NCBI GenBank assembly: GCA_025927935.1 | Contig: JAICKM010000002.1 | Location: 1 to 39,361 of the forward strand | Reading direction: 5' to 3' | Source of the DNA: Chloroflexia bacterium | Lineage (GTDB): Bacteria > Chloroflexota > Chloroflexia > QHBQ01 > JADMIH01 | Length of the DNA: 39,361 nt | Part shown: positions 118 to 39,285 of the stretch, one piece after another | How the letters are laid out: every line of letters begins with the position of its first letter | Numbering within the stretch: the first letter of the stretch is position 1 | Position numbers and translations under genes: made by a program | The notes under the pieces: generated by a model | What the model was told of the DNA's origin: nothing | What the model saw: only the letters and a program-made list of their open reading frames with translations | The model's database searches: none

Positions 118-1342
118 GTGCGGACTTGGCGTACGGAGCCGAAATACACCCGGCGAAATGCAAGCAACGGCAGTGGACGACTGCCCGGCACAGCTCATGC
201 ACGTCATCAGCCATGATTTACTTTCTCATCGCTCAGCTCGTCTCGCTACTACCCGACCTGTTCGCCACCACCCGCCGCTCGGAGCGCCACCAGGACCTGC
301 CGATCCTGCTGCTCCGCCAGCAACTTCGTATTCTGCAACGCCATCATCCCAAGACCCCGCGTGTTTCGCGCTGGGAGAAACTCACGCTGGCTGTACTCAC
401 TACCAAACTTACCGCTCTCGGCCAGGACACCAACGCGAACCTGGACGAGGTGCTGCTCTTGGTCAAGCCAGGCACTGTTCTTAAATGGCCTCGCGAACTT
501 GTCCGTCGCAAATGGACCTTCAGGCAGCCGCCGTTTATCGCTCGCCGCAAAAGTAATCCTGAGCTGGTCGCCTTGCTGCTGCGCCTGGCCCGGGAAAACC
601 CGACTTGGGGCTATAGTCGCGTGCATGGCGAACTGCTCAAGCTGGGCTACAGGATCGGCCGCTCCACAGTGCGGGATATTCTTAAACGTGAACATGTGCC
701 GCCAGCGCCCAAGCGAGCAGATGCGGGCAGTAATTGGTCGACGTTTCTCGCTCACTATGCGCGCCAAATGCTTGCTTGCGATTTCTTCACGGTAGAAACC
801 GCTTGGTTGCGCACTCTGTATGTGTTTTTCTTCATCGAGTTGGACAGCCGGCGGGTGCATTTCGTCGGCTGTACGGCCCATCCCAGTGCAGCATGGGTGA
901 CCCAGCAGGCGCGGCACCTAACCGGGACGCTGCAGGATCAGGGTAAGCAGATCCGTTTCTTGATTCGTGACCGCGATGCCAAGTGCGCGGATAGCTTCGA
1001 CATGGTCTTCGCGGCTGAAGGTGTCGAGATTGTGCGGACACCCTTCAGCGCACCCAAAGCGAATGCCTTCGCCGAACGATGGATCCGCAGTGCCAGAAAC
1101 GGGTGCCTGGATCGCTTGCTGATCCTAAATGCAGCACACTTGCGGCGAGTAATGAAGGCGTACATCGAGCATTACAATGAGGCCAGGCCGCATCAAGGGA
1201 TCGAACAGCGTTGCCCTATTCCGATTGAGCACGCTCGCCGAGAAGGCGTGGTGAGACGGCGGGACGTGCTGGGCGGCATCATTCACGAATATCGCCGAGA
1301 GGCCGCGTGACATCATAGCAGCCGCAGATAACAAAACCGCAC
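118..1342 (+). mobile_element. Integrase-type (DDE/rve) insertion sequence, likely complete
   Basis: The element carries one transposase gene. The proposed ends come from two observations. Near 118 the plus strand reads GTGCGGACTTG, and the reverse complement of the right end at 1342 begins GTGCGGTTTTG. The same GTGCGGTTTTG terminus is seen in the decayed relative at 36197, which supports the right boundary. The termini are only short and imperfect, and I found no clear target duplication, so the ends may be off by several bases. The right end abuts a truncated IS630 transposase, suggesting insertion into, or deletion next to, that older element. Confidence 0.6.
213..1310 (+). CDS. Transposase with integrase (rve) catalytic core
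   Basis: The protein is 365 residues from the ATG at 213. An upstream in-frame ATG at 126 is possible, but the 213 start gives the usual hydrophobic N-terminus of this family (MIYFLIAQLVSLLP). A helix-turn-helix-like region is followed by an RNase H-fold core. The DDE residues are visible: D190 in LACDFF, D253 in LIRDRDAK and E288 in AFAERW. The spacing of 34 residues between the second D and E is normal for IS3/IS481-like integrases. The C-terminus has the conserved YIEHYNEARPHQGI block. It would catalyse cut or copy-out transposition of the surrounding element. The frame is intact, so it may be active. Assignment to IS481 or IS3 is uncertain; membership of the rve superfamily is firm. Confidence 0.85.
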   Translation: MIYFLIAQLVSLLPDLFATTRRSERHQDLPILLLRQQLRILQRHHPKTPRVSRWEKLTLAVLTTKLTALGQDTNANLDEVLLLVKPGTVLKWPRELVRRKWTFRQPPFIARRKSNPELVALLLRLARENPTWGYSRVHGELLKLGYRIGRSTVRDILKREHVPPAPKRADAGSNWSTFLAHYARQMLACDFFTVETAWLRTLYVFFFIELDSRRVHFVGCTAHPSAAWVTQQARHLTGTLQDQGKQIRFLIRDRDAKCADSFDMVFAAEGVEIVRTPFSAPKANAFAERWIRSARNGCLDRLLILNAAHLRRVMKAYIEHYNEARPHQGIEQRCPIPIEHARREGVVRRRDVLGGIIHEYRREAA

Positions 1343-7554: not shown

Positions 7555-8472
7555 CTATCTTTCGAGCAACGCGCTGGGTGACAGTGGCCACTCCTCCTGA
7601 TCCCAACCAAGCTGCTCAATCCGCAAGGTGGGTGCCCCTTCGGCGTCAGCATCATATGAGTGGTAAACCAGGAAGTAGTTGTCGTTTTCAACGTATATGG
7701 AATTATGTCCAGGGCCACGCCAGCGGGACGAACCGGCGTAGATCAGGGTGCCCCCGCCGTCGGTCAAGAGCTTGCCATCGCGATCCCGATATGGTCCGGC
7801 GATGTCCCGTGCACGACCCACCTTGATCTTATAGGTGCTCAAGGTACCACGGCAGCAGTAATCATGGGAGATGAACAGGTAATAGACGTCTCCACGGCGG
7901 ACGATATACGCACCTTCCACGGCGGCTGATCCGGGATTGCTAGCAATAGAGATCAACTCCGCGCCCCGGCTGGGCTTCATCGTGCGTCGATCGACTTGCA
8001 CGAGCTTGATCCCGCTCCAAAAGCTGCCAAAGGCCAGCCAGGGCTGACCCCCCTCGTCGAAACTCAGTTGCGGATCGATGGCGTTGTAATCATCACTCTC
8101 TTGCGACGAAATCACCGCACCCTCGTCCACCCAGTTGTAGTTGGGATCGCGTGGGTCCAGAGTTACATTTGTCGCCAGCCCGATGACTGAACGGCGTGAG
8201 CCAAAAGTAGATGCCGCATAATATAGGTAGTACTTCCCTGCATGGAAGACAATGTCCGGCGCCCACAAGCTCTTGGCATTGGGGACAGCCTGCTCAACCC
8301 ATTCTGGATAAGTGTCAAACACGCGGCCGGCCTGCTCCCAAGCCAGCATATCTTTTGAACGGCGCATCGGAATACCCTTGCCGGTCGAAAACAGGTAGTA
8401 GGTGTGCCCCTCTTTTATCATCACCACATCATGGACGTGGGCGATATCCCCTGTCGTCTCCAAGATGATCAT
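7555..8472 (-). CDS. Cytoplasmic GH43 arabinanase-like hydrolase
   Basis: The protein is 305 residues and consists of a five-bladed beta-propeller with no signal peptide. The three GH43 acids are present: D15 in HVHDVV (general base), D133 in NAIDPQLSF (pKa modulator) and E186 in VEGAYI (general acid). SLWAPDIVFHAGKYYLYY and AFGSFWSGIKL are characteristic of endo-1,5-alpha-L-arabinanases. It would cut internalised arabino-oligosaccharides. The start at 8472 has AGGAG upstream and lies 27 bp after the GH27 stop codon. A paralogue with about 60 percent identity and a lipoprotein signal lies at 19731-20885, suggesting an inside/outside division of labour. Exo- or endo-mode cannot be told from sequence. 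Confidence 0.85.
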   Translation of the reverse strand: MIILETTGDIAHVHDVVMIKEGHTYYLFSTGKGIPMRRSKDMLAWEQAGRVFDTYPEWVEQAVPNAKSLWAPDIVFHAGKYYLYYAASTFGSRRSVIGLATNVTLDPRDPNYNWVDEGAVISSQESDDYNAIDPQLSFDEGGQPWLAFGSFWSGIKLVQVDRRTMKPSRGAELISIASNPGSAAVEGAYIVRRGDVYYLFISHDYCCRGTLSTYKIKVGRARDIAGPYRDRDGKLLTDGGGTLIYAGSSRWRGPGHNSIYVENDNYFLVYHSYDADAEGAPTLRIEQLGWDQEEWPLSPSALLER

Positions 8473-8499
8473 GGCAAGCTCCTATGAGTGCCGAATAAG

Positions 8500-9792
8500 T
8501 CAATGGTTAGCGCTCACTCTGGTAGCCGAACTCACTTTCACTAACCTCGCCCCATGTGGCGGGACTTGCACGGCGATACTGTTTTCGAACTCCCCCAGGT
8601 CCGCCTGCTGCCACACATCCCGAACTGCCTGCGGCCCGGTGAGGCCCAGTTTGGCCAGGGGAGTTTCGATGCTAACTGTTGTCACACCTGTGTTGAAAAC
8701 GGCAAGATATTGGCGGCCATCTTCATCTTGAGCCGTCCAGGCGATATGCGGCCCGAACCGATACAACTGCCTGCCCGAATGCGAATGATTCAAGAGACGC
8801 AGTACTTCCGGGTTCGTTAGCAACCCCAGAGTCCAGTCATCGTTATCACGCAACTCGCACCCGAGCATGAGGGGCGATCGGAATATACACCACAAAGTCA
8901 TCATCGTCAGTTGCTCGTCCCGGCTAAAGCGAGTCCAGCGATCCCCAACACCATGCTCGAAGGATCGAATAGCCAAGTGCCCTAAAGGCAGCATATCCGC
9001 ATCGGGCCAGTGCCCCGGTCCAACATGCTCGCTCCAGACGTGACATCTGTCAAACTCGTTGTAGAGATCTTCCCACCGATCCCAATAATCGTCTGTCATG
9101 CGCCACATGTTCGCGTTGTTCTTTACATGTTCCGCCATAGCGAGCGTCGTCGGACCAGGAGAGAGACTGAGCACCATTGTCCGGCCGCACCGATCGATGG
9201 CATTGCGCACCAGCTCGATCTCGCCTGCTGAATAGGGAGAGGAAATATCGTCCACTTTGACAAAGTCAACCCCCCAGGAGGCATACAACTCAAACAGTGA
9301 CTCATAGTAACGGCGCGCCCCTTCTTTGACTGGGTCAACCCCATACATATCCGTATTCCACGTGCTAATGGAGTTGGGATGCGCGATGTCTCTGGCCCGC
9401 AGGGTGGTTCCCAGGATCGGCGTATTCGCATGCACGGCTTGCCGAGGAATGCCGCGCATGATGTGGATTCCGAACTTCAAGCCCAATGCGTGAATTCGAT
9501 CGGCCAACGGTGTGAAGCCCGCGCCACCGGCGGCGGAGGGGAATCGGTTCGCGGTCGGCATGAGGCGGGAATGGTCGTCCATTTCCAACGGTACGAACGG
9601 CCTGTAGATCGAGGAGTTTGCGCCCGGCTCATACCACTGAATATCCACCACCACATACTCCCAACCGTACGGACTTAAGTGCTTAGCCATATATTGGGCA
9701 TTCCCCAGCACTTCCTCTTCGGTGACGCTTGCACCGTACACATCCCAACTGTTCCAGCCCATTGGAGGCGTAAGGACGGTATTCTGGCTCAT
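8500..9792 (-). CDS. GH27 alpha-galactosidase or beta-L-arabinopyranosidase
   Basis: The protein is 430 residues. The start at 9792 is preferred over a longer frame because its ATG overlaps the TGA of the upstream gene in an ATGA quartet, which implies translational coupling, and because the protein then begins MSQNTVLTPPMGWNSWD, the standard GH27 opening. The nucleophile is D181 in DFVKVDDI and the acid/base lies at D234/D235 in WRMTDDYWD. A small beta-sandwich follows the barrel at the C-terminus. Family members release alpha-D-galactose or beta-L-arabinopyranose, which have the same ring geometry. With the arabinose genes around it, the arabinopyranosidase activity is attractive, but the sequence does not decide this. 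No signal peptide is seen. Confidence 0.85.
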   Translation of the reverse strand: MSQNTVLTPPMGWNSWDVYGASVTEEEVLGNAQYMAKHLSPYGWEYVVVDIQWYEPGANSSIYRPFVPLEMDDHSRLMPTANRFPSAAGGAGFTPLADRIHALGLKFGIHIMRGIPRQAVHANTPILGTTLRARDIAHPNSISTWNTDMYGVDPVKEGARRYYESLFELYASWGVDFVKVDDISSPYSAGEIELVRNAIDRCGRTMVLSLSPGPTTLAMAEHVKNNANMWRMTDDYWDRWEDLYNEFDRCHVWSEHVGPGHWPDADMLPLGHLAIRSFEHGVGDRWTRFSRDEQLTMMTLWCIFRSPLMLGCELRDNDDWTLGLLTNPEVLRLLNHSHSGRQLYRFGPHIAWTAQDEDGRQYLAVFNTGVTTVSIETPLAKLGLTGPQAVRDVWQQADLGEFENSIAVQVPPHGARLVKVSSATRVSANH

Positions 9793-11468
9793 AAAGATCC
9801 CCCAGGCACACTGATTTCGATCAGCGAAACGCTTGGCAGCGGTAAGCGAATTGGCAGCACCAGGCAAGAGTCGCTCGGCGTCTCTGCTTGGTCAGGCTCC
9901 AACAGCTCAAGCCGTTGCCGATCTTTGATCCCGCGTAACTCTCCCGGCGAGGGATCCTGCGGTGCACCGATTTCTTGCCACGCTGTATAGCTATTGCTGT
10001 GCCGCGCATCGATACGCCAGTGGCGAATGTGCACGGGGTGCGCCGCGAAGGGGAGCCGCTCAATCCGCAGCGTTACCTCCGTCTCACCCGAGTCAATGAG
10101 GTACTGATCATCCGCGTGGCGCCACAGCAGGACGGCCACACGATCGCGACCGTTGAAAGTGGCCAGGGCATCCACCTCCTCGGGCATGCCGGTCGCTTCC
10201 TCGTCGAGCCGTTGCAGCGACCAAGCGTGACTGGATTCCACCGATAACCGCGTGTCACCTAGCCGGGCGAGCATCCGGTAGGCGTTCAGGATCGGCTTCT
10301 CGACCTGCGCGGCGGTGAAGAGACTGCGGGTGCCTTCGAAGAAACGCTCCCCTTCGAAGTAGAAGCTCCAGGTGGTAGCTTGATGAACTTGTGCGCTGCT
10401 TACTGCGTTCAGGTCCAATAGTTTCTTCATCAGCTTGCATTGAAAGACGGCATAGTACTCCGTGTTGCGGTAGCCAAAGTTGGCGTTGTCATACACGCCC
10501 CAGTGTGCCGGCACCGAGGCGTCGCACTCGTCGACGAAACAGGGCAAGGCGCGGAACTGCGGATGGCCGGCCACCGCTTGCAGCCCGGCCTGCACTTCGC
10601 GCAGCATCTTGAGCATGGATGGTGATTGCCGGACGGGGGCGGGCGCGCCGAGCGGGCCGTAGACCCGCCAGGGGGAGAAGGCAGCGCCTTTGGTATGGAA
10701 CGACACGAAGTCGAGCGGCGTCCGATGGCGTGCACAGTGGTCTAGAAAACCACGGAGAAAGGTAGGCCCGCGGCCCTGAAGATCGCCCGTGGTGCTCGGG
10801 CCGCCCACTTGGGCATCGACGAGTGCCGCCTTTACCGCGGCCGCCGTGCTGTCATAGAGTTCATAGTACTGCTCAGGTGTGCCCCGCCAGTAGAAGATAT
10901 CCGGTTCGTTCCAGACTTCCCACAACCAGGTACGCACACGATCTGCCCCGTAGCGCTGGACACAGTGCTCCACGAGGGCGCGCACCAGGCCATTCCACTT
11001 GGCATAGTCTTTTGGTGGGAAGGACCAGAGACCAGCCTCGTAGGCACTCCACTGCGTAGGACTCGGCTCGAAGAGGAAGCGCCCTGGCGCGTCGTCGGGG
11101 ACAAGCGCGCGGGGGGTAAAACCAAGTTCGACGAGTGGCCGGTGCCCGGCCTGCACGATGGCGTCGTACACTGCGTCGGCAACCTGGAAATCATAGAACG
11201 GGTTGCCGTTAGCATCTTCATGGTAAACGTTGCCGGCTCCCCAATGGGGCAAGGACCAGCCGACCCCGCTGTTGAAGATATAGTGCGGGCGCACGTAGTA
11301 GGGTTGCTCGGCCAGAGCGCCAATCACCCGCAGAGCGTGCTTGCCCTTGGGGGTGTAAGTCCAGTTGAGTTCGTCATAGCCAAAGCTGGTCCAGATGCGG
11401 CGGACTGGCCCGTGCCAAACTCCGCAATCCACACGTACACTTGCTTGCCCGATCGTCGCTTTCGCCAC
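9789..11468 (-). CDS. GH39-type glycosidase (beta-xylosidase family)
   Basis: The protein is 559 residues. It has the GH39 N-terminal block GYDELNWTYTPKGKHAL, the acid/base E188 in LWEVWNEPDIF, and a probable nucleophile E314 in CFVDECD. A beta-sandwich domain follows after about residue 400. Known GH39 activities include beta-xylosidase, alpha-L-iduronidase and arabinobiosidase-type enzymes, so the activity on this locus's substrate is open. No export signal is visible. It starts 25 bp downstream of the decayed HAD gene and overlaps the GH27 gene by four bases. Confidence 0.8.
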   Translation of the reverse strand: MAKATIGQASVRVDCGVWHGPVRRIWTSFGYDELNWTYTPKGKHALRVIGALAEQPYYVRPHYIFNSGVGWSLPHWGAGNVYHEDANGNPFYDFQVADAVYDAIVQAGHRPLVELGFTPRALVPDDAPGRFLFEPSPTQWSAYEAGLWSFPPKDYAKWNGLVRALVEHCVQRYGADRVRTWLWEVWNEPDIFYWRGTPEQYYELYDSTAAAVKAALVDAQVGGPSTTGDLQGRGPTFLRGFLDHCARHRTPLDFVSFHTKGAAFSPWRVYGPLGAPAPVRQSPSMLKMLREVQAGLQAVAGHPQFRALPCFVDECDASVPAHWGVYDNANFGYRNTEYYAVFQCKLMKKLLDLNAVSSAQVHQATTWSFYFEGERFFEGTRSLFTAAQVEKPILNAYRMLARLGDTRLSVESSHAWSLQRLDEEATGMPEEVDALATFNGRDRVAVLLWRHADDQYLIDSGETEVTLRIERLPFAAHPVHIRHWRIDARHSNSYTAWQEIGAPQDPSPGELRGIKDRQRLELLEPDQAETPSDSCLVLPIRLPLPSVSLIEISVPGGSL

Positions 11469-11493
11469 CTGTATCGCTTTGCCTCCTGTGCGA

Positions 11494-11911
11494 CTAAAGT
11501 AGCCTATCCATGCGCTCGAGCACGAGCGTGGCCCTCAGACCCGACACAGCTAGCTTTTCACGGTCTGTATCATTCGTCAGGACGAGGTGGTTTCCATGCC
11601 GGCGTCAATCCTCATCTTGATATAGATCTCCAGCCGGTCGCCGACCATAAGGCCGTGATCGGGCGGCAGATCAAGCGGAGTTACGGCACCAGCACAAATG
11701 AGGCGTTCATAATATGCTTGGCGGATGTAGGAATGTTCAGAGCCGTGAGCTCCATCGCGTATTGCTGCCGCGTTCGGCTCGGGGTATTCGACAGGAAGAT
11801 CGTACGCCGACTCGCTGCCCATAGCAGGGCTCCGATTTCCGCGACGCGCGGCAGCAGTGTGTGGCCAAGGTAGATCATGCCGTCCAAGTGAAAGAGATAA
11901 GCGCTGTACAT
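11494..11911 (-). pseudogene. Decayed HAD-IIA sugar phosphatase (NagD/AraL-like)
   Basis: Three pieces in changing frames together spell a HAD-IIA phosphatase. The first, from ATG 11911, has YLFHLDGMIYLG and RTIFLSNTPSRTR, corresponding to the DxDGT loop and motif II, but with the first catalytic Asp replaced by His. The second has LPPDHGLMVGDRLEIYIK, motif IV near the C-terminus. After another frame change it ends TNDTDREKLAVSGL and stops at 11494. An intact member is about 260 residues; here only about 140 codons remain, so roughly the whole cap domain is deleted. In Bacillus subtilis, AraL of the same family sits in the arabinose operon. The remnant keeps its operon position, 7 bp after the regulator and 25 bp before GH39. 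Confidence 0.8.
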
Positions 11912-11918
11912 TGGTCGA

Positions 11919-12986
11919 TTAGCAAGCGCCCGAATAGCGCGGTTCGCCAATAACCTTCCCGGCGTGGAGATGGGCACCACAGGATTGCCGCACGATCAGC
12001 TCGCCATAGACAATGCTTTTCACCGGTATCTCTGCCTCGCCGCTGATCAAGCGCTGCAACTTCTGCATAGCAAGGATCCCCATTTCGTATTTCGGAATAC
12101 GATACGTTGTTAGCGCGGGCTGACTATAGGCGCTCTCACTGACGTCGTCAATGCTGACGATGGCCATGTCCTCCGGTATCCGCAAGCCTGATTCTTTGAT
12201 CGCCTCCATCGCGCCAAAAGCCGTCTTATCGCTCACCGCCACCACTGCGGTTGGCTTGTTGCGCTGATGGAGGATCTCTTGCATTTGCAGGTATCCTTTC
12301 TTGGGATGCCCAGAGCTGGGCTGCGGAATCCATTCCGGCGGGATGAGTAGCCCTGCTTCGGCTGCCCCGGCGAGACAGCCGCGGACGCGCTCCACCAGAC
12401 TGCTGTATTTGTGGGGACCAGGCAAGACGGCGATCGCCCGATGCCCCAGGCTGAGCAGATGCTGCATGACTGTATAGCCTGCAGTAAAGTTGTCGCCCAC
12501 AACGCAAGGAAGCCGCTGCCCGGCAATACAGTTCTCGATCAGTACTAACGGTAAATTCAGCGCGCCGAGCCGGATCACCATCTCGGGAGCAATATCCCCG
12601 TCGTTGGCAACGACCAAGCCCCGCACTTGACTCGCCAGGCGGCCGCGTAGTCCATCCAGGTTTTCCGCACTGCGATCGAACATGTGCAGGACCACATGAA
12701 AGCCCAACCGCTGCGCTTCGGCTTGAAATCCACCGATGACCTGGCCGTAGAAAATGTCCAGGATGACGGGCATTGAACTCTTCTCAATCAGCAAGCCGAC
12801 GGCTTGTGGCTTGCCGTCCTCCACGGGGGGCCGGATGGAGTAACCAAGACTCGTGATGGTCTGCCAGACTCGTTCGCGCGTGTCGAGAGATACGCCCGGC
12901 CTCCCGTTGATGACGATCGAGACTGCGGCGGCCGAGACGTTCGCCGCATGCGCGACATCTCGGATGGTCGGTTTCTGCTTAGGCAT
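11919..12986 (-). CDS. LacI-family transcriptional regulator
   Basis: The protein is 355 residues, normal for the family. Residues 7-27 form the LacI helix-turn-helix (TIRDVAHAANVSAAAVSIV) followed by the hinge. A periplasmic-binding-like ligand domain follows, with GLLIEKSS, GHRAIAVLPGP and AIVSIDDVSESAYSQPALTT. The start is supported by a GGAG site 8-10 bases upstream. It is the first gene of the minus-strand operon and lies opposite the transporter operon, so it probably controls both in response to arabinose, an arabinoside or an oligosaccharide. The operator is not known; candidate inverted repeats are listed in the promoter region. Confidence 0.9.
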   Translation of the reverse strand: MPKQKPTIRDVAHAANVSAAAVSIVINGRPGVSLDTRERVWQTITSLGYSIRPPVEDGKPQAVGLLIEKSSMPVILDIFYGQVIGGFQAEAQRLGFHVVLHMFDRSAENLDGLRGRLASQVRGLVVANDGDIAPEMVIRLGALNLPLVLIENCIAGQRLPCVVGDNFTAGYTVMQHLLSLGHRAIAVLPGPHKYSSLVERVRGCLAGAAEAGLLIPPEWIPQPSSGHPKKGYLQMQEILHQRNKPTAVVAVSDKTAFGAMEAIKESGLRIPEDMAIVSIDDVSESAYSQPALTTYRIPKYEMGILAMQKLQRLISGEAEIPVKSIVYGELIVRQSCGAHLHAGKVIGEPRYSGAC

Positions 12987-13224
12987 AAGGTACTCCGTTA
13001 TTCATTAGAAGATCGCTATAACAGGCGGAATCGCTTCATTCGAGGCGGAGGCGGGCGGAGAGCAGGGAGCGTGACCACGAAACCGATATTTACCAGCAGG
13101 CTCCTGTGGGTCGCGGTTTAGGACCCATAGGATTTTTCGCATCCAGCACGTGCCCGGATCTACCGGCACTATCTCTGTATAACGCCAGTATAGACGATTT
13201 GTTTAGTGACGTGTTTAGTACCCA

Positions 13225-13251
13225 ATTTGTGGTATGTTCCCTATACCAAAT
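13225..13251. promoter_or_regulatory. Candidate operator upstream of the plus-strand promoter
   Basis: An inverted repeat with cores GGTAT (13231-13235) and ATACC (13243-13247) is flanked by ATTTG and AAAT. Its centre lies about 14 bp upstream of the -35 box. A regulator bound here would sit just outside the polymerase. A second GGTATGTT follows inside the spacer at 13260. Function is inferred from position only. Confidence 0.35.
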
Positions 13252-13252
13252 C

Positions 13253-13281
13253 TTGACAGGGTATGTTTTCTCTGCTAAAAT
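13253..13281 (+). promoter_or_regulatory. Sigma-70 promoter for the transporter and arabinose operon
   Basis: TTGACA at 13253-13258 and TAAAAT at 13276-13281 are separated by 17 bp. This is a perfect -35 and a five-of-six -10 with ideal spacing. The start point would be near 13289, giving a leader of about 675 nt to the binding-protein start. Confidence 0.75.
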
Positions 13282-13358
13282 GCGAGATGTAACTTCACCT
13301 GAACCGCCCTTAGGATGGAGCGGCAGGCGATCGTGCTCAGGTGTAGTATCTAGAGTTT

Positions 13359-13386
13359 ATTATAGCCGGACTCTGCTAAATGTCAA
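13359..13386 (-). promoter_or_regulatory. Sigma-70 promoter for the regulator and glycosidase operon
   Basis: On the minus strand TTGACA (13386-13381) and TATAAT (13364-13359) are both perfect consensus boxes with a 16-bp spacer. The start point would be near 13352, about 365 nt before the regulator start. It lies downstream of, and faces, the plus-strand promoter. Confidence 0.75.
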
Positions 13387-13963
13387 GTAAGGAAACCTAC
13401 ACTCACGTACTAAATATTCGTTATGCGTTCAGGGATGTTTAGCGGAACCGAAGATGAAGCGACTGACTGATTAGTCACTTCAACCATCATGCGGCGAATA
13501 CCCAGCCTGTCTATTGGTACCTCGATCCACCAGTTTGTGGTGGCGTAAGGGGTGTAGCGATGCAGGTGATCCAGGAGCAGATCGAGCTAAGCTATCGTCG
13601 GGGCTCGATGGCGGCAGTGATATCGGTGGCGCAACTCCCATACGGCGCAGCCGGCAGGCCGTACAGCAGCATGCTCCTTGCCTGTGTCCCGGATCTGGAC
13701 TCGCATCTCAGCAGCACATTCCGCAACTCAAACCAGCCCCCTTCCCTAACAGATTCAAAGAATACCGCACTCCCTAGCACAGCGTATGGCGACGAAGCTG
13801 GGCGCCCGATCCGGCCAGCCGATCGCCTCTGCGCAAACAGGGAGAGCAACATGTCCACGGCGCGGGAGCAGCCGTGGCATGGCACCTCTTGCTCCCGCGA
13901 GCAACAGGCGCAGCAGTTACGAATTTGGACGGCTGCCTGGTTATTAGGGAATAGGAGGAGGAA

Positions 13964-15412
13964 ATGTCCGATAACTCAGAGAATAAGTTTTCAAGAAGAG
14001 AAGTTCTTCGCCTGCTTGGCCTGACCGCTGCTGGTGCTCTATTGAGCGCCTGCGGCGACACGGGCCAGACCAACGCCACGCCGACCACCGGCACGGCCGC
14101 CGGGGCCACGCCGACCACCGGCGCGGCCGCCGGGACCACGGCAACCACCGCTGGCGCGGCCGCCGGAGCCGCGGCAACCGAGGCGCCTGGGGCGGCGGCG
14201 ACCGCGGCCGCCGCTTCGGGGGAGATCATTATCTGGGACCGCGCCGGCGACCTGTTCCAGGTGCTGGATGCAGCCATCCCGGCGTTCAACAAGCGGTATC
14301 CCCATATCAAGGTCACCCACCAGCCAGTCGATGTTGGCGCCAAGCTTCCGTCCACGCTGGCCACTGGCGTTAACGTGCCCGATGGCTCCTTCATCGAGGA
14401 CAACAACCTAGGCCCGATCAACGAGCACCTCTACGATATCACCGATTGGATTCAACCCTACGTCAACGATCTGGTCACCTACAAGGTGCGCGTTAACACC
14501 TGGAACGGCAAAATCAAAGGCATTCCTTACGACGTCGATCCGGGCTTGTTGTATTACCGCGCCGATATCCTCGATCAAAATGGTATCAAGATCGAGGACA
14601 TCAAAACCTACGACGATCTCCTCACGGCCGCAAAGACCCTGAAGGGCAAGAACCCCAACCTAAAGCCGATCCATATCGAGAACGATCAGGGCACGATCCC
14701 ATTGTGGATCTCGATGTTCCTCAACCAACAGGGCGTCAGCTACCTCGATGAAAAAGGGAACCTGACCCTCGATAACCCAGAGTTCCGCAACGTGACGACC
14801 TGGCTCAAAGCCGTAGTGGACGCCGGGGTGGCCAGCCGTACCGCCCTGTTCTCGCCGGACGATATCGCGGCCGACGATAAGGACGTTCAGATCTTCGTCC
14901 CGTACGCGATCTGGTATAACTACGGCATCGGGAACCTGCTCAAGACGTCCAAGGGCAAATGGCGCGCTACTCGCCTGCCCGCTTGGAAGGCCGGAGGCAG
15001 CACCGCTGCCTCGATGGGTGGGTCATCGTTCGTCATCCCGGCGAAAGGCAAGAACCCGCAACTCGCCTGGCTCTTCTACGAGTACATGATGCTGAATCCC
15101 GAAGGCTACAAGGCGGCCTTCGGCGCGAACAAGATCTACGCGACCGGCATCGACACACTGCTGCCCTCGTACAAGCCCGCCTACAGCAGCCAGCTCATGG
15201 GCAATCCGGCGGGCCTCGGCGGGCAGAACCTTTGGGAGCTCGCCACTAGCGTGGCCGCCGACATTCCTCAAAACTTCTACTTCCCTGTCTGGTATAACCA
15301 GTTGCCCCCGATCTTGGGGGCCAATATCCAGAAGCTGTACGACGGCAAGCTCTCGCCTGAGGATGCAGTGAAGCAATCCGCGAGCGACATCAAAGCCAAA
15401 CTGATGCGCTAG
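13964..15412 (+). CDS. ABC sugar transporter, substrate-binding lipoprotein
   Basis: The protein is 482 residues. The N-terminus combines a twin-arginine-like motif (FSRREVLRL, R11-R12) with a lipobox LLSAC, so C30 would be lipidated and the protein anchored outside the membrane. Residues 31-83 form a low-complexity Thr/Ala/Gly linker. The remainder is a family 1 solute-binding fold (EIIIWDRAGD at the start, GGSSFVIPAKGKNPQLAW near the hinge). It would bind an arabinose-containing oligosaccharide and pass it to the two permeases encoded next. AGGAGG lies five bases before the ATG. The ligand is inferred from the neighbourhood. Confidence 0.9.
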   Translation: MSDNSENKFSRREVLRLLGLTAAGALLSACGDTGQTNATPTTGTAAGATPTTGAAAGTTATTAGAAAGAAATEAPGAAATAAAASGEIIIWDRAGDLFQVLDAAIPAFNKRYPHIKVTHQPVDVGAKLPSTLATGVNVPDGSFIEDNNLGPINEHLYDITDWIQPYVNDLVTYKVRVNTWNGKIKGIPYDVDPGLLYYRADILDQNGIKIEDIKTYDDLLTAAKTLKGKNPNLKPIHIENDQGTIPLWISMFLNQQGVSYLDEKGNLTLDNPEFRNVTTWLKAVVDAGVASRTALFSPDDIAADDKDVQIFVPYAIWYNYGIGNLLKTSKGKWRATRLPAWKAGGSTAASMGGSSFVIPAKGKNPQLAWLFYEYMMLNPEGYKAAFGANKIYATGIDTLLPSYKPAYSSQLMGNPAGLGGQNLWELATSVAADIPQNFYFPVWYNQLPPILGANIQKLYDGKLSPEDAVKQSASDIKAKLMR

Positions 15413-15423
15413 CACCCGCAAGA

Positions 15424-15455
15424 TCAGGGGGATCCGGGCGGCCGGATCCCCCTGA
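15424..15455 (+). terminator. Strong intercistronic hairpin after the binding-protein gene
   Basis: A perfect 14-bp stem, 15424-15437 pairing with 15442-15455, has a GCGG loop. No T run follows, so it is more likely an mRNA-stabilising or partial-termination hairpin that keeps binding-protein mRNA in excess, as is common in such operons. Confidence 0.75.
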
Positions 15456-15472
15456 CCCTCCACACTGATCCG

Positions 15473-15504
15473 CAGGGGCAATATCGCAAGTGCTATTGCC
15501 CCTG
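15473..15504 (+). terminator. Second intercistronic hairpin, with short T tract
   Basis: CAGGGGCAATA at 15473-15483 pairs perfectly with TATTGCCCCTG at 15494-15504 around a 10-nt loop, followed by TTTA. It could act as a leaky intrinsic terminator between the binding-protein and permease genes. Confidence 0.65.
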
Positions 15505-15537
15505 TTTACGCGCCGGCGCACCGGCCTGGAGGCTAAC

Positions 15538-16485
15538 ATGAAAACCCAATCTGCCGTTTCCATGGATAGAAGCGGGGGTGGTGAGCTTGTTGCCGCGCTT
15601 CCCGCGATAGAGAGGCTCAGAAGATGGGTGGGCGGGAGTTTCGCGCCTTACCTGTTTATCTCGCCTTTCTTCGTCCTCTTCTTCGCTTTTGGGCTTTACC
15701 CGCTGCTTTATGCCTTTGTCCTGAGTTTCACCAAGTGGCATGGCGCAGGCACGCCCGAGTTCATCGGCCTGGGCAACTATACCTTTTTGCTCACCGACAG
15801 CTTTTTCTGGGGATCGATCGCGACCTCGGTCATTCTGTGGCTGTGGATCGTGCCGGCCCAGACGCTCTTATCGATCCTGGTGGCTGCGCTATTGTCCCGG
15901 CCCCGTCCGTTGCAGTCTTTCTTCCGCACGGTTTTCCTGGTGCCTTACCTGGTGCCGCTCGTGGCTATTGCCCAGGTCTGGTTGATCCTGTTTGACCAAA
16001 ACTCCGGGGCGGTGAATCAGTTCCTCCAGCTTTTCGCCGTCCCCAACATCGGCTGGCTAACCACGGAGTTCTGGGCCCGGGCGACCATCGCCCTGCTGGT
16101 CTTCTGGAAGGGCTTTGGCTTCGCGGTGTTGATCATGCTGGCCGCCATCCAGGCGATTCCAGCCGATATTTATGAGGCGGCCGCCATCGACGGCGCGACC
16201 GGCAGATCCCAGTTCCGGTATATTACCGTCCCGCTCATGCGCCGGACGATTGCCTTCTTCCTGGTCGTTTCAACGCTCGGCGTGCTGCAAATGTTTGCCG
16301 AGCCCTATGTGCTCACTGCGGGCGGCCCTTACAACGCGACTACCACCGCTGGGTTCGCGCTGTTGAGCTATACGCGCAACCTGGACTTGGGAACCGGCGC
16401 GGCCAACTCATTCCTGCTGATGATTATCGTCACAATCGTAGCGTTGCTGATGCTCAAATTCCTGCGAGCGGGCGACGAGGTTTAG
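15538..16485 (+). CDS. ABC sugar transporter permease, MalF/UgpA type
   Basis: The protein is 315 residues from the ATG at 15538, chosen over a frame opening at 15490 because GGAGG lies six bases before it and the upstream frame runs through a hairpin. About six transmembrane helices are visible, starting APYLFISPFFVLFFAFGLY. The EAA loop that contacts the ATPase reads YEAAAIDGATGRSQFRYITV. It forms the membrane channel with the next gene product. No ATPase gene is present in the window, so a shared MsmX/UgpC-type ATPase encoded elsewhere is likely. Confidence 0.9.
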   Translation: MKTQSAVSMDRSGGGELVAALPAIERLRRWVGGSFAPYLFISPFFVLFFAFGLYPLLYAFVLSFTKWHGAGTPEFIGLGNYTFLLTDSFFWGSIATSVILWLWIVPAQTLLSILVAALLSRPRPLQSFFRTVFLVPYLVPLVAIAQVWLILFDQNSGAVNQFLQLFAVPNIGWLTTEFWARATIALLVFWKGFGFAVLIMLAAIQAIPADIYEAAAIDGATGRSQFRYITVPLMRRTIAFFLVVSTLGVLQMFAEPYVLTAGGPYNATTTAGFALLSYTRNLDLGTGAANSFLLMIIVTIVALLMLKFLRAGDEV

Positions 16486-16498
16486 GAGGACCACGACA

Positions 16499-17410
16499 AT
16501 GGCGACCACACTACAAGCCCAAACCCAAACCGGAACCGTAGAGGGGACAAAAGGCGACCCGCGCCACTCGCCGTTCGCCGACCTGCTGGCGTATCTCTTT
16601 CTCGGGCTCCTGGCCGTCTTTTTCCTGTTCCCGTTGGCCTGGATGATGTTGTCGTCCCTGAAGACTGGACAAGATATTGCCACCAGCCCGCTCGTGTTCG
16701 ACCCCAGGGCAATGTCGTTTGACAGCTATGGGGCGATGCTGGCAAACGTGCCACTCCTGGATGGCTTCAAGAACACACTGATTGTCGTCGTTTTCAAGGG
16801 TGGCCTGGAACTCTTCTTTTGCCCCTTGGCCGGCTATACGTTTGCCAAGCTCCGCTTCCGGGGCCGCGAGGCACTGTTCAATATTGTGCTGGCCACGTTG
16901 ATGCTGCCGGTGATCGTCATGCTGATCCCTTTGCTGCTGGAAATGGGGGCGCTCGGCTGGGTTGACTCGTACCAGGCGCTCATTTTGCCGGGCGCGGTCA
17001 GCGCGTTTGCCATCTTCTTTATGCGCCAGCAGATGGCAGATATTCCCGACGAGCTGATCGAGTCGGGCCGCTTAGATGGAGCGGGGCCATTTCGTATCTA
17101 CTGGAGCATTGCCCTGCCGATCATGCGCCCGGCACTGGCGGCGCTCGCCATCCTGACTTTCCTGGCGATTTACAACGATTTCGTCTGGCCGGTGATCGTC
17201 ATCAGTTCGGTAGACAAACAGACCCTGCAGATCATGCTCTCGTACCTCGCCACCCAGATCAACAACGCCTCGGTGGGCACGGCCGGCAGTAACGCATGGG
17301 GTCAGATTCTGGCCGCGAGCACCCTGGCCACGCTCCCGCTGCTGATTCTCTTCATTGCCTTGCAGCGGCATTTCGTCGCCGGGTTGATGGCCGGGGCGTT
17401 GAAAGGCTAA
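16499..17410 (+). CDS. ABC sugar transporter permease, MalG/UgpE type
   Basis: The protein is 303 residues. After a polar N-terminus (residues 1-28) come about six transmembrane helices; the second-permease EAA loop reads PDELIESGRLDGAGPFRIYW and the C-terminal segment HFVAGLMAGALKG is typical. The start is 13 bp after the previous stop with AGGAGG between them, so the two permeases are probably translated from one message and coupled. Confidence 0.9.
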   Translation: MATTLQAQTQTGTVEGTKGDPRHSPFADLLAYLFLGLLAVFFLFPLAWMMLSSLKTGQDIATSPLVFDPRAMSFDSYGAMLANVPLLDGFKNTLIVVVFKGGLELFFCPLAGYTFAKLRFRGREALFNIVLATLMLPVIVMLIPLLLEMGALGWVDSYQALILPGAVSAFAIFFMRQQMADIPDELIESGRLDGAGPFRIYWSIALPIMRPALAALAILTFLAIYNDFVWPVIVISSVDKQTLQIMLSYLATQINNASVGTAGSNAWGQILAASTLATLPLLILFIALQRHFVAGLMAGALKG

Positions 17411-17454
17411 GTGGAGCGGACGCGCGAAATCCAGAGTTCCAGTGGAGGCGTTGC

Positions 17455-19734
17455 ATGGCTACAGATCCGGATAATCCACTGTTCCGATTCACACGAGACG
17501 ACACCGCCGCGCAGAATATCTTGCGCGTGGATGTGCAGCAGGCGGGCCCGGTGGCCCCGCCATCCATCCTGGGCAACTTTTTCGAAAACCTGACGTTCGC
17601 TGTCGTCGGAGGGATTTCGGCCGAGCTTTTATCAAATCCAACCTTCGCCCGTGACCCGCACCTTCTGCCTGGGCAGAAGGCGCAGTTACTGACCAACGGC
17701 AGTGCCCTGGTTGCGCTCTATCTCTCGGGCGGCGACCCGGCCATACTGCACTGGGGCTGGGGTGCCGAAGATCCGGCCATATTGCGTCGGCGCTGGTGGC
17801 CCACACCTTTGTGCACCGGCTTTGGCGTGAGCGTCCTCGATGACGCCACCGCACAGGGGATCCCCTTCGCCTGGGGACCGCTCGGCTACCCCGGTGGCGT
17901 CACTGCTTCGGCCGGTCGCCTGGGCGGCGCCGTCCGGCTCCTGGGTGGCGACTGGCCCAGCGGCCCGGAGCACTATTGGCCGGTCCTGGAAGATGGTCCC
18001 GCCGGCATCCGGCAGGGCGTCTTCCTGCCCATTAAGCGCTGCCGCGCCTACAAAGGCGATCTCTGGGTCAGGATCGGCACAACCAGGGGCGGGGAGCACG
18101 GCGAGGTCGAGGTGGGCTTCCGCCGTCGCGTGGCAACCCCGGATGGCCAGCGGCAGGCCGGGGAGCGCATTGCTGCTACCAGGCTGCGCGTGGAGTCGCC
18201 CGAATGGCAGAAGCTGCCCTTCGAACTGAAGCTGCAGGAGGGCCAGGTCGCCTTCGGCGAGCCGGTCGATTTCTACCTGCGCTGGCTGCCGCGCTCCAAC
18301 ACGGCCTTGCATCTGCTCGTCGACCGCGCCTTCCTGCTGCCGCAGGATGAGGAGGATGGGCTTGACCCCGAGGTGGTCGCGCTGGTGCGTAACTCGACCA
18401 TGCCCCAACTACGTTGGCCCGGTGGCAACTACGTCAGCTACCATCACTGGCGCGACGCCGTCGGCCCGGTTGACCTGCGGGCAACTTACCCTAACTATGC
18501 CTGGGGCGGGTTGGACTACAACCTGTTCGGCACCGACGAATACATCACCTTCTGCCGCAAGCTCGGCATCCGGCCGCATATTACGGTCAACCAGGGTACC
18601 GGGACGGCAGAGGAAGCGGCCGCCTGGGTCGAGTATTGCAACGGCGACGAAACTACCCCAATGGGCAAGCTCCGAGCCCGGAACGGCCACCCCGCGCCGT
18701 ACAACGTGACCATCTGGGAAGTGGGTAATGAGATTTTCGGCACCTGGCAGGGCGGCTTCGTCAGCTCTGACGAGAATGCCCGCCGCTTCAGCGAGTTCGC
18801 GCCAGCGATGCGCGCGGCCAGCCTCATCCCCATCGAGGTGATCGCCTGTGGCAACAACTTCGATTTTGCTGAGCCGGGACTGGGCTATGACCACACGCAT
18901 GCTGACCGCCGCTGGCATGACCAGTTGCTCAAGCAGGCGCCCGAGCAGATCGACTACATCTCACTGCACTCGCTGCCCGTCAACGATCTGTTGCTGGAGA
19001 ACGTGAGCGATGAGGAGGCGCATAACGCCGTCCTGGGCCAGGTGACCACCTGGGAGCGCCGCTTCCTGCCTGATCTGCTCGAACGTGCCCAGCGTGCGAA
19101 CCGGCCCGGCAAGGCGTCGCCCATCAAGCTGGCCATCACCGAATGGGGACCGCTGGGTGGGCACCCGAACCGGCTCAACGTCGAGAACTTCGGGGCAGTA
19201 GTATACGCCGGCGTATTCCTCAACATGGTGCTGCGCAACGCCGACCGCATCCCGATTGCGCTGCCCAACGGGTTCATGCACGGCGGCTGCATTCGCAAGG
19301 CCTACGGGGTGGTTTACTACGATCCGCAGTTCTTCGCCATGCAGCAATATGGGCCTTTCATCGGCACGAAGCCACTGGCCTGTGAGTTGACCGGGCCGGG
19401 CTACGATGTGCCGCATCCTTGCGATCTGGGGGCCAAAGACTCCGATATCCCGTTCGTAGATGCCGTAGTTTGCCAGTCGGATCACTCCCCGGGGCTGCTC
19501 GTAGCGGCCGCAAACAAACACCTGACGCGGACAATGGAGCTGGTCATTCAGATACCTGGCTACAACGTCTCGGCAGGTGCCCACGCGGCGGTACTCGCTT
19601 ATCCGGAAATAACGGCGATGACCAACCCAGTGCAGCCGGATCTTTTCCAGTTGGGACACATCGAGATAACGCCTGTCGGGGACATGATAACCATACAACT
19701 GCCGCCCTTCTCGGCTGCCTGGATCACCTTATGA
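17455..19734 (+). CDS. Long GH51-type alpha-L-arabinofuranosidase, copy B
   Basis: The protein is 759 residues from the ATG at 17455, which has GGAGG at 17443-17447 and aligns with the start of copy A (MATDPDNPLFRFTRDD). The frame is open further upstream but that part overlaps the permease gene and is rejected. Acid/base E426 lies in WEVGNEIFG and nucleophile E563 in AITEWGPLGG. The protein is highly similar to copy A at 2451-4694, with an extra segment around residue 100 (GWGAEDPAILRRRWW). No export signal is seen. It ends in an ATGA overlap with the GH43 lipoprotein gene, so the pair is probably co-translated. The two copies may differ in linkage preference. Confidence 0.85.
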   Translation: MATDPDNPLFRFTRDDTAAQNILRVDVQQAGPVAPPSILGNFFENLTFAVVGGISAELLSNPTFARDPHLLPGQKAQLLTNGSALVALYLSGGDPAILHWGWGAEDPAILRRRWWPTPLCTGFGVSVLDDATAQGIPFAWGPLGYPGGVTASAGRLGGAVRLLGGDWPSGPEHYWPVLEDGPAGIRQGVFLPIKRCRAYKGDLWVRIGTTRGGEHGEVEVGFRRRVATPDGQRQAGERIAATRLRVESPEWQKLPFELKLQEGQVAFGEPVDFYLRWLPRSNTALHLLVDRAFLLPQDEEDGLDPEVVALVRNSTMPQLRWPGGNYVSYHHWRDAVGPVDLRATYPNYAWGGLDYNLFGTDEYITFCRKLGIRPHITVNQGTGTAEEAAAWVEYCNGDETTPMGKLRARNGHPAPYNVTIWEVGNEIFGTWQGGFVSSDENARRFSEFAPAMRAASLIPIEVIACGNNFDFAEPGLGYDHTHADRRWHDQLLKQAPEQIDYISLHSLPVNDLLLENVSDEEAHNAVLGQVTTWERRFLPDLLERAQRANRPGKASPIKLAITEWGPLGGHPNRLNVENFGAVVYAGVFLNMVLRNADRIPIALPNGFMHGGCIRKAYGVVYYDPQFFAMQQYGPFIGTKPLACELTGPGYDVPHPCDLGAKDSDIPFVDAVVCQSDHSPGLLVAAANKHLTRTMELVIQIPGYNVSAGAHAAVLAYPEITAMTNPVQPDLFQLGHIEITPVGDMITIQLPPFSAAWITL

Positions 19735-38121: not shown

Positions 38122-39285
38122 ATGTCTACTATACCCAAAATCACCGCCGCCCTGCGCCTGATCCTGGGTCCCCAAGCCGATACCATTGCCTGGGGCAATG
38201 GCTTTGGGCGCCGCCGGGATAAGCCGCTCACCGGGGCCCGCTTCGGCCAGCTGCTGCTGACCATGCTGACCACACCTAATCCGTCGCTGACCGCTTTTTG
38301 CCACACCGCTGCGGCCTTGGGACTGGCCCTCAGCGCCCAGGCCGTGGCCCAGAACTTCACCGCGGCGGCGGATTTGCTCCTGGCGGTCTTACAACGACTG
38401 GCCCTCGTGACCGTGGCGGCCGTCGACCCGCTGGCCACCGGACTGCTGACGCGCTTCCGGGCCGTCCATGTGTTCGACTCCTCCTGTATTGGCTTACCCG
38501 CCAGCTTGGCGCCGTTTTGGACCGGCTGCGGCAATGGCAGTCGGCCTCAGGCTGGCACAGTGACGACCCTCAAACTGGCCCTCGGCATCGAATTGCGCCG
38601 CGGCAGCCTAGTTGAGCGATGTGCTAGATCAAATTAGTTTTAAAAGGCTGACGCAAGAACAACCTGCGTAAAAGCCTGTGCGGAGTTGGGCTGAGTAGTA
38701 GATCCGGGTCGTCCAGCAGGGCTTAGAACCGGGACGGACCCTCCTTCAGCTACACAATAACTCGTATTAGCCTTTTTAAATTTACTTGATCTGGCACATC
38801 GCCCTAGTTGGCTTTGAATTACTCGATGGGGTGGTGCATGCCCGCTTCGCGGCAGTGCAGCACCGTCCGGTGCTGGCGCAGAGCCTGCGGCTCACGGACC
38901 TAGGCTTCTTGGGCCTGACCCGCTTCGCGGCCGTGGGCGCCCAAGGCAGCTGGTGGTTCTCGCGCTTGCAAACCAGCGTGGGGATCTTCACGGCCGACGG
39001 GCGGCGGGCGGAGTTGGAGGACTTGCTGGCGGCGCCCACCGCGGATGCGTATGACGCCTGGGTGGAACTAGGGGTGACGGCGCGGCTGATGGCGGTGCGG
39101 GTGCGCCAGGACGTGGCCGACAACACGCGGCGCAAGCTGCGGGCGGCCGCCACGGGCAAAGGCCAGCCGGTGAGCAAGCGGCGCTTAGCCAGCGCGGGCT
39201 GGAATGTGTACGTCAGCAACATCCCGGTGGAGCATTTGAGCATGCAAGAGGCAGTCGTACTGGCCGGTGTGCGCTGGCAGATCGA
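38122..39285 (+). pseudogene. IS4-type DDE transposase, interrupted by a MITE and truncated
   Basis: The N-terminal part, from ATG 38122 (AAAGGAG upstream), reads to 38606 and contains the first catalytic aspartate in VHVFDSSCIGLP. A 187-bp insertion at 38616-38802, plus one copy of a 9-bp duplication, breaks the frame. Beyond it the frame resumes as LVGFELLDGVVHARF and continues with SWWFSRLQTSVGIFTADG and VYVSNIPVEHLSM to VRWQIE at about 39285. There the family sequence should continue with the YREK region, but unrelated sequence follows. Removing the insertion restores LRRGSLVGFELLDG exactly. The gene is therefore broken twice. Confidence 0.85.
38616..38802. mobile_element. 187-bp MITE-like element inserted in the IS4 transposase
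   Basis: The element has 34-bp imperfect terminal inverted repeats (38616-38649 and 38769-38802), both ending GCGATGTGC outward. It is flanked by a 9-bp duplication, CCTAGTTGA at 38607-38615 and CCTAGTTGG at 38803-38811, with one changed base. It has no coding capacity. The interior is GC-richer than the AT-rich inner ends and contains small stems (ACGCA/TGCGT near 38650-38670; GGGTCGTCC with GGACGGACCC). It must be mobilised by a transposase encoded elsewhere. The 9-bp duplication would fit families such as IS256, but the source is unknown. Confidence 0.88.

Follow-up and report, generated by a model that had tools for sequence, protein, structure and literature searches.

Face-to-face promoters between a LacI-family regulator gene and an arabinose-type operon in Chloroflexota, with a possible role for promoter interference

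Promoters that face each other with a short overlap, one serving a repressor gene and the other its target, are known, judging from the parts of the accounts drawn on here, from scbA-scbR (PMC3134472) and from P2-like phages (PMC7498355). In Streptomyces coelicolor, scbA and scbR are an opposite-strand pair, one of which encodes a repressor, and their face-to-face promoters produce a 53-bp overlap. The repressor's operators adjoin the promoters, and interference together with a possible antisense effect is described in an account that cites the known starts, models the switch and uses a polymerase footprint of -50/+20 (PMC3134472). In P2-like phages the lytic and lysogenic promoters oppose each other at 40-60 bp, and in phage 186 pR inhibits pL by interference (PMC7498355).

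The locus considered here lies within a window (the whole stretch of DNA analysed) of 39,361 bases. It resembles scbA-scbR in the opposed promoters of a repressor/target pair, the candidate operator sites close by and the short overlap of the predicted leaders; however, scbA-scbR has another regulator, with the butyrolactone SCB1 as its signal (PMC3134472), whereas the window carries a LacI-family regulator of sugar genes that is known from sequence. It shares the face-to-face promoter pair with the P2-like phages, but these use it for lysis/lysogeny control, with Apl/Cox sites between or over the promoters, while the top operator-like site of the window lies outside the pair (PMC7498355). The likeness to an excludon is that the transcription of neighbouring genes would overlap, although in the window it is predicted leaders that overlap, in non-coding sequence only (PMC7154746). 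The window also differs from bidirectional promoters with a shared -10, since its predicted starts, in the opposite order, are separated by 64 nt and no element is common to both (PMC12825309); the two -10 elements are separate, at 13276-13281 and 13359-13364. Within the open-licence literature on a Chloroflexota arabinose LacI operator and on the 13-mers of the palindrome, as far as its accessible parts go, no description was found of this regulator, and the combination of face-to-face promoters with divergently transcribed repressors gave no match under that description.

The gene assignments of the initial annotation, with lacI and glycosidases running leftward and an ABC transporter and araB/araD/araA homologs running rightward, were borne out by ORF homology and Pfam (Table 1). 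The regulator has the helix-turn-helix and periplasmic-binding-like domains of the LacI family (PF00356, 46.2 bits with a cut-off of 27; PF13377, 114.7 bits with a cut-off of 26.5). To its right, the plus operon encodes the lipoprotein, two permease-like proteins, arabinofuranosidase-like and GH43 proteins and the three ara homologs. To its left, the minus strand encodes GH39, alpha-galactosidase-like, GH43, fucosidase and arabinofuranosidase-like proteins, of which the GH43 protein is endo-arabinanase-like with a score under the curated cut-off. A transposase-like integrase-core protein (PF13683) is encoded at the left edge of the window (126-1310). The locus had no plasmid match and no related locus in viral contigs. 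Among 120 listed proteins, six bear an organism name, five of them Chloroflexota and one Alphaproteobacteria, and the genome contigs with the best names are Chloroflexota, so that the window probably comes from this phylum.

Table 1. Coordinates of the genes, predicted promoters and operator-like sites around the opposed promoters of the window
Feature	Position	Strand	Remarks
LacI-family regulator gene (lacI)	11919..12986	-	Predicted leader of 366 nt
Operator-like site, second and weaker, TGTTTAGTGACGT	13200..13212		4 mismatches; TTTAGT enrichment
Operator-like palindrome TGTTTAGTACCCA	13212..13224		2 mismatches to TGTTTANTAAACA; centre 13218, i.e., -70 from the plus start
Plus promoter, TTGACA-17-TAAAAT	13253..13281	+	TG at 13273-13274; predicted start 13288/13289
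Overlap of the predicted 5' leaders, 64-65 nt	13288..13352		Contains a hairpin-forming inverted repeat
Minus promoter, TTGACA-16-TATAAT	13359..13386	-	Predicted start 13352; directed at lacI
Possible decayed right-hand operator, ACTCTGCTAAATG	13370..13382		One half retained; overlaps the edge of the minus -35
TTTAGTAC	13407..13414	-	Repeats the left-site core in inverted orientation; 2 copies found in the window against 0.15 expected
Extracellular solute-binding lipoprotein gene, first of the plus operon	13964..15412	+	AGGAGGAGG upstream; predicted leader of about 675 nt

Re-reading of the sequence placed both hexamer pairs where the initial annotation had them and confirmed that the promoters are opposed: the genes are divergent and each promoter is directed across the other. 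The plus promoter matches the consensus at 11/12 positions and the minus promoter at 12/12. The pattern TTGACAN{16,18}TAWAAT occurs twice in the window, at exactly these two promoters, while none of 100 shuffles reached two matches (0 expected). At a threshold of 9/12, seven sites were found in 8000-18000 against 4.0 (sd 2.1) expected, an unremarkable count, and the two promoters score highest among them. The runners-up within the 977-nt intergenic region (spacing of 16-18 nt) reach 8/12 on the plus strand and 9/12 on the minus strand (13513). Shuffling the 140 nt downstream of the plus start 1000 times did not once produce a 12/12 minus promoter. Setting +1 at 7 nt past the -10 gives predicted starts of 13288 and 13352 for the plus and minus promoters, in agreement with the roughly 64 nt of mutually complementary 5' leader that had been proposed.

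Promoter- and operator-like sequences with a common spacing in this gene order, which recur in some orthologs, lead us to infer active promoters, a binder, an inducer and interference. On balance, we think it probable that both promoters are real and that mutual polymerase interference is combined with repressor control. In this view lacI would be expressed from the minus promoter, and the ABC transporter/arabinofuranosidase/ara operon from the plus promoter. As the promoters are opposed and about 64 bp apart, a polymerase from either must traverse the other, so that the two transcription units would suppress each other in cis, with the polymerase at the opposing promoter dislodged or blocked. 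The -70 palindrome would be occupied by a repressor, for which the LacI-family protein itself is the likeliest candidate; this repressor may also take a second site near the lacI promoter, and both promoters would be held low until arabinose or an arabino-oligosaccharide frees it. Autorepression of lacI is probable, and the strong plus promoter, once induced, would also reduce lacI transcription, so that the regulator and operon arms would restrain each other. The complementary leaders would then be chiefly a by-product.

By arithmetic from a -50/+20 footprint, two polymerases fit on both promoters simultaneously with about 23 bp between them. In a Monte Carlo simulation with assumed rates, promoter strengths and collision rules, and one short run per setting, output fell to 34-93% of the unopposed level if both polymerases were removed on collision and to 63-91% if the promoter-bound polymerase alone was lost. 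In each of the three settings with unequal promoters, the weaker one was hit harder, whichever collision rule applied. The transcription interference that the initial annotation had suggested is partly supported, in that it would fit the geometry, which recurs in some orthologs.

The same annotation had raised antisense pairing. A switch of this kind would join the two leaders in a duplex and silence the rarer transcript through RNase III or a block to translation. The complementarity is perfect across 64-65 nt, and the inverted repeat is present (CACCTGA at 13296-13302, TCAGGTG at 13337-13343). Such a 7-bp repeat arises in 6% of shuffles of the same stretch, and arms of 11 nt with a single mismatch arise in 0.45%, an arm length picked after the repeat had been seen. 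In the window, each strand folds into a stable hairpin (-21.3 kcal/mol with z -1.4, and -22.4 kcal/mol with z -2.9), but in six face-to-face relatives the fold z of the overlap ranges from -2.6 (L043) to +0.9 (L059), a variation that makes the repeat likely to be a local feature. In the orthologous regions L038 and L043, moreover, the left operator (13/13), the plus promoter (25/30) and the minus promoter (24/31) are kept, whereas drift is seen in the overlap (25/56), in the stretch from operator to -35 (10/29) and in the right flank (55/147). With leaders of the predicted lengths the overlap lies in non-coding leader, distant from the gene starts, and does not reach the coding part of either lacI or the transporter gene; it ends about 612 nt ahead of the plus gene and 302 nt ahead of lacI, so pairing would miss the ribosome sites. 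A switch that relies on pairing via a defined RNA structure is therefore unsupported, and we regard an antisense switch as improbable. Since neither the inter-start sequence nor the hairpin is conserved, polymerase interference plus repressor control is favoured over it. A riboswitch or other known RNA in the leaders was rejected, as Rfam gave no match at gathering level across the whole window or at E up to 1 in 12950-14100. The plus leader (13289-13963) contains a 154-aa open reading frame (13560-14024) that has no Pfam match.

Orthologous loci were collected by means of the regulator. Genome contigs yielded 10 loci with LacI relatives, the last of them a weak match, and whole genomes were searched at E limits of 1e-60 to 1e-85 in sets that overlap. 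A relative was present in 3/3 chosen genomes, 5/400 of a phylum sample, 6/150 relatives, 6/158 genomes of one class, 0/47 of another class (1e-80) and 31/154 of one order, with 5/396, 2/29 and 4/46 in further sets. The comparison set comprised 35 regions with a LacI identity of at least 50%. Five of these were dropped, L015, L047 and L054 for want of a 10/12 plus promoter and L029 and L057 for a short upstream region, which left 30 usable regions, i.e., the window and 29 orthologous regions with 52-68% LacI identity. One partial ortholog (G883) stayed outside the comparison, and closer relatives of the window are represented by the cluster P0001, with 7 members on 4 contigs. In L058, where two plus promoters score 10/12 alike, TTGACT-16-TACAAT was taken for its alignment with L059. 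The intergenic DNA itself gave a match in one of 10 genomes, of about 31 nt and on another contig than that genome's regulator gene.

Counting minus promoters of at least 10/12 up to 120 nt from the plus start, a limit of our own choosing that omits L014 (-236), we found 20 in the 30 regions. Their offsets from the plus start were -64 (8), -63 (5), -71 (1) and -15 (1), with one each at +47, +55, +56, +64 and +68. The commonest layout consists of back-to-back promoters with a common -35 (14/30 regions: the -63/-64 class and L051 at 9/12), in which TTGACAA, or a close variant, reads as TTGTCAA on the opposite strand and the starts are 63-64 nt apart. This layout would leave room for one polymerase at a time. 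At 10/12 or better it is seen in L028, L033, L034, L035, L037, L039, L040, L042, L044, L045, L048, L053 and L056. In L027 (-15), overlapping -10 elements (TACGATTATA) are read both ways from predicted starts 15 nt apart, a resemblance to the bidirectional shared -10 promoters (PMC12825309, as far as described there). Within 120 nt, a lacI promoter of 10/12 is missing from seven regions (L001, L014, L036, L046, L049, L050 and L055).

Face-to-face promoters of at least 10/12 are present in 5/30 regions (the window, L041, L038, L043 and L060), with overlaps of 47-68 nt, and face-to-face sites at 9/12 in four more (L035, L050, L058 and L059). An earlier view from 14 relatives that the layout was unique to the window was overturned once more orthologs came in. 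When the 140 nt past the plus start were shuffled, minus promoters of at least 10/12 turned up at a frequency of 0.9-4.2% per locus and those of 9/12 at 8-25%; 9/12 sites being so frequent, L058 and L059 are weak taken alone, and they were counted as face-to-face on the strength of their alignment with L060, a label given before tree building. The common -35 (14 regions) and the face-to-face layout at 10/12 or better (5 regions) never occur in one region (P 0.03 by chance); at 9/12, L035 has both.

This variety of layouts bears on whether the overlap matters. The locus may hold ordinary repressor-controlled divergent genes, in which both promoters work and the overlap is neutral: under repression neither would fire often, under induction the plus promoter would win, and the geometry would drift because it is immaterial. 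The geometry does vary, L014 and 5 of the 12 distinct regions with less than 50% identity (L002, L005, L006, L018 and L031) having back-to-back promoters 203-307 nt apart; the closer relatives mostly have the common -35, and good palindromes are found in most regions. Against drift, the minus promoters of at least 10/12 within 120 nt in the 30 regions always overlap, abut or oppose the plus promoter, and we rate a neutral overlap as rather unlikely. Another reading, that the plus promoter alone matters for mRNA while the minus promoter yields a short antisense transcript and transcription of lacI begins elsewhere, would account for a 366-nt lacI leader, which is long beside the roughly 26-173 nt predicted for most relatives with a minus promoter of at least 10/12. 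However, L034, L037, L042 and L045, all with the common -35, have predicted leaders of 315-373 nt, the other minus sites upstream of lacI do not exceed 9/12, and no terminator-like site is listed on the minus strand from 13352 to 12986. We consider this reading very improbable.

On the LacI tree the seven face-to-face rows fall in three places, namely the window, L041/L038/L043 and L058/L059/L060. Three label changes are needed, forced by well-supported branches, and these could represent one gain and two losses. The nearest row to the window by path is L027, which has overlapping -10 elements and not facing promoters.

The other half of the favoured mechanism, repressor control, draws on a shared palindrome. 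In a count of 6-mers upstream of ten relatives, from which the window was left out, an uncalibrated ranking by z placed TTGACA first (20 against 3.3 expected) and TTTAGT second (15 against 3.3); equally high raw counts arise for some 6-mer in shuffles. The other expected values for TTTAGT enrichment concern patterns picked after looking. The consensus TGTTTANTAAACA was read by eye from the ortholog regions after this count, and 51 sites with at most two mismatches occur in the orthologous regions, the window excluded. The site at 13212-13224 is the top match in all 39 kb of the window. A palindrome lies at -75 to -65 from the plus start in 19/30 regions (the window and 18/29 orthologous regions) and at +45 to +110 in 20/30, and the motif is missing from most regions below 50% LacI identity. 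The second-best match in the window (TGTCTACTATACC, 38123-38135, 3 mismatches) stands at the start of an open reading frame (38122-38637) that has no Pfam match.

No right-hand operator with two or fewer mismatches is present in the window. In L041, L038 and L043 a right site with 2, 2 and 3 mismatches, respectively, reaches into the lacI -35; the site at 13370-13382 of the window is possibly a decayed right operator, and TTTAGTAC is a possible alternative. In the E. coli gal system a LacI-family repressor has operators flanking the promoters on both sides, with GalR looping. The window is alike in its LacI-family regulator with candidate sites on either side, although its right site is doubtful and looping belongs to gal.

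The binder of the palindrome is probably the neighbouring LacI-family protein. In Anaerocellum bescii, however, a site with the identical core has been checked as an operator of XylR, a member of the ROK family, in the available part of that account (PMC12285236), which weakened LacI as a certain binder. Pfam scans of 30 window ORFs, hand-picked from 98, gave no ROK match, and a ROK regulator encoded elsewhere in the genome may be the binder. The LacI-type control that had been added to the proposed switch is thus plausible, with a palindrome at -70 that is common to orthologs and a binder that is a candidate only.

A single locus rarely tells whether promoter interference in regulator/operon pairs is selected or incidental. 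The presence of one orthologous regulator with at least two promoter layouts and a similar operator position makes this family a natural comparison. We tentatively entertain, as possible though short of probable, that across this Chloroflexota regulator family the lacI and operon promoters are kept mutually obstructive through a common palindromic -35, overlapping -10 elements or a face-to-face arrangement, the layouts having been swapped several times while the operator was held near -70, so that interference itself, and no one layout, would be the selected trait. A further product of the comparison is TGTTTANTAAACA, a candidate operator close to Chloroflexota LacI genes of arabinose type.
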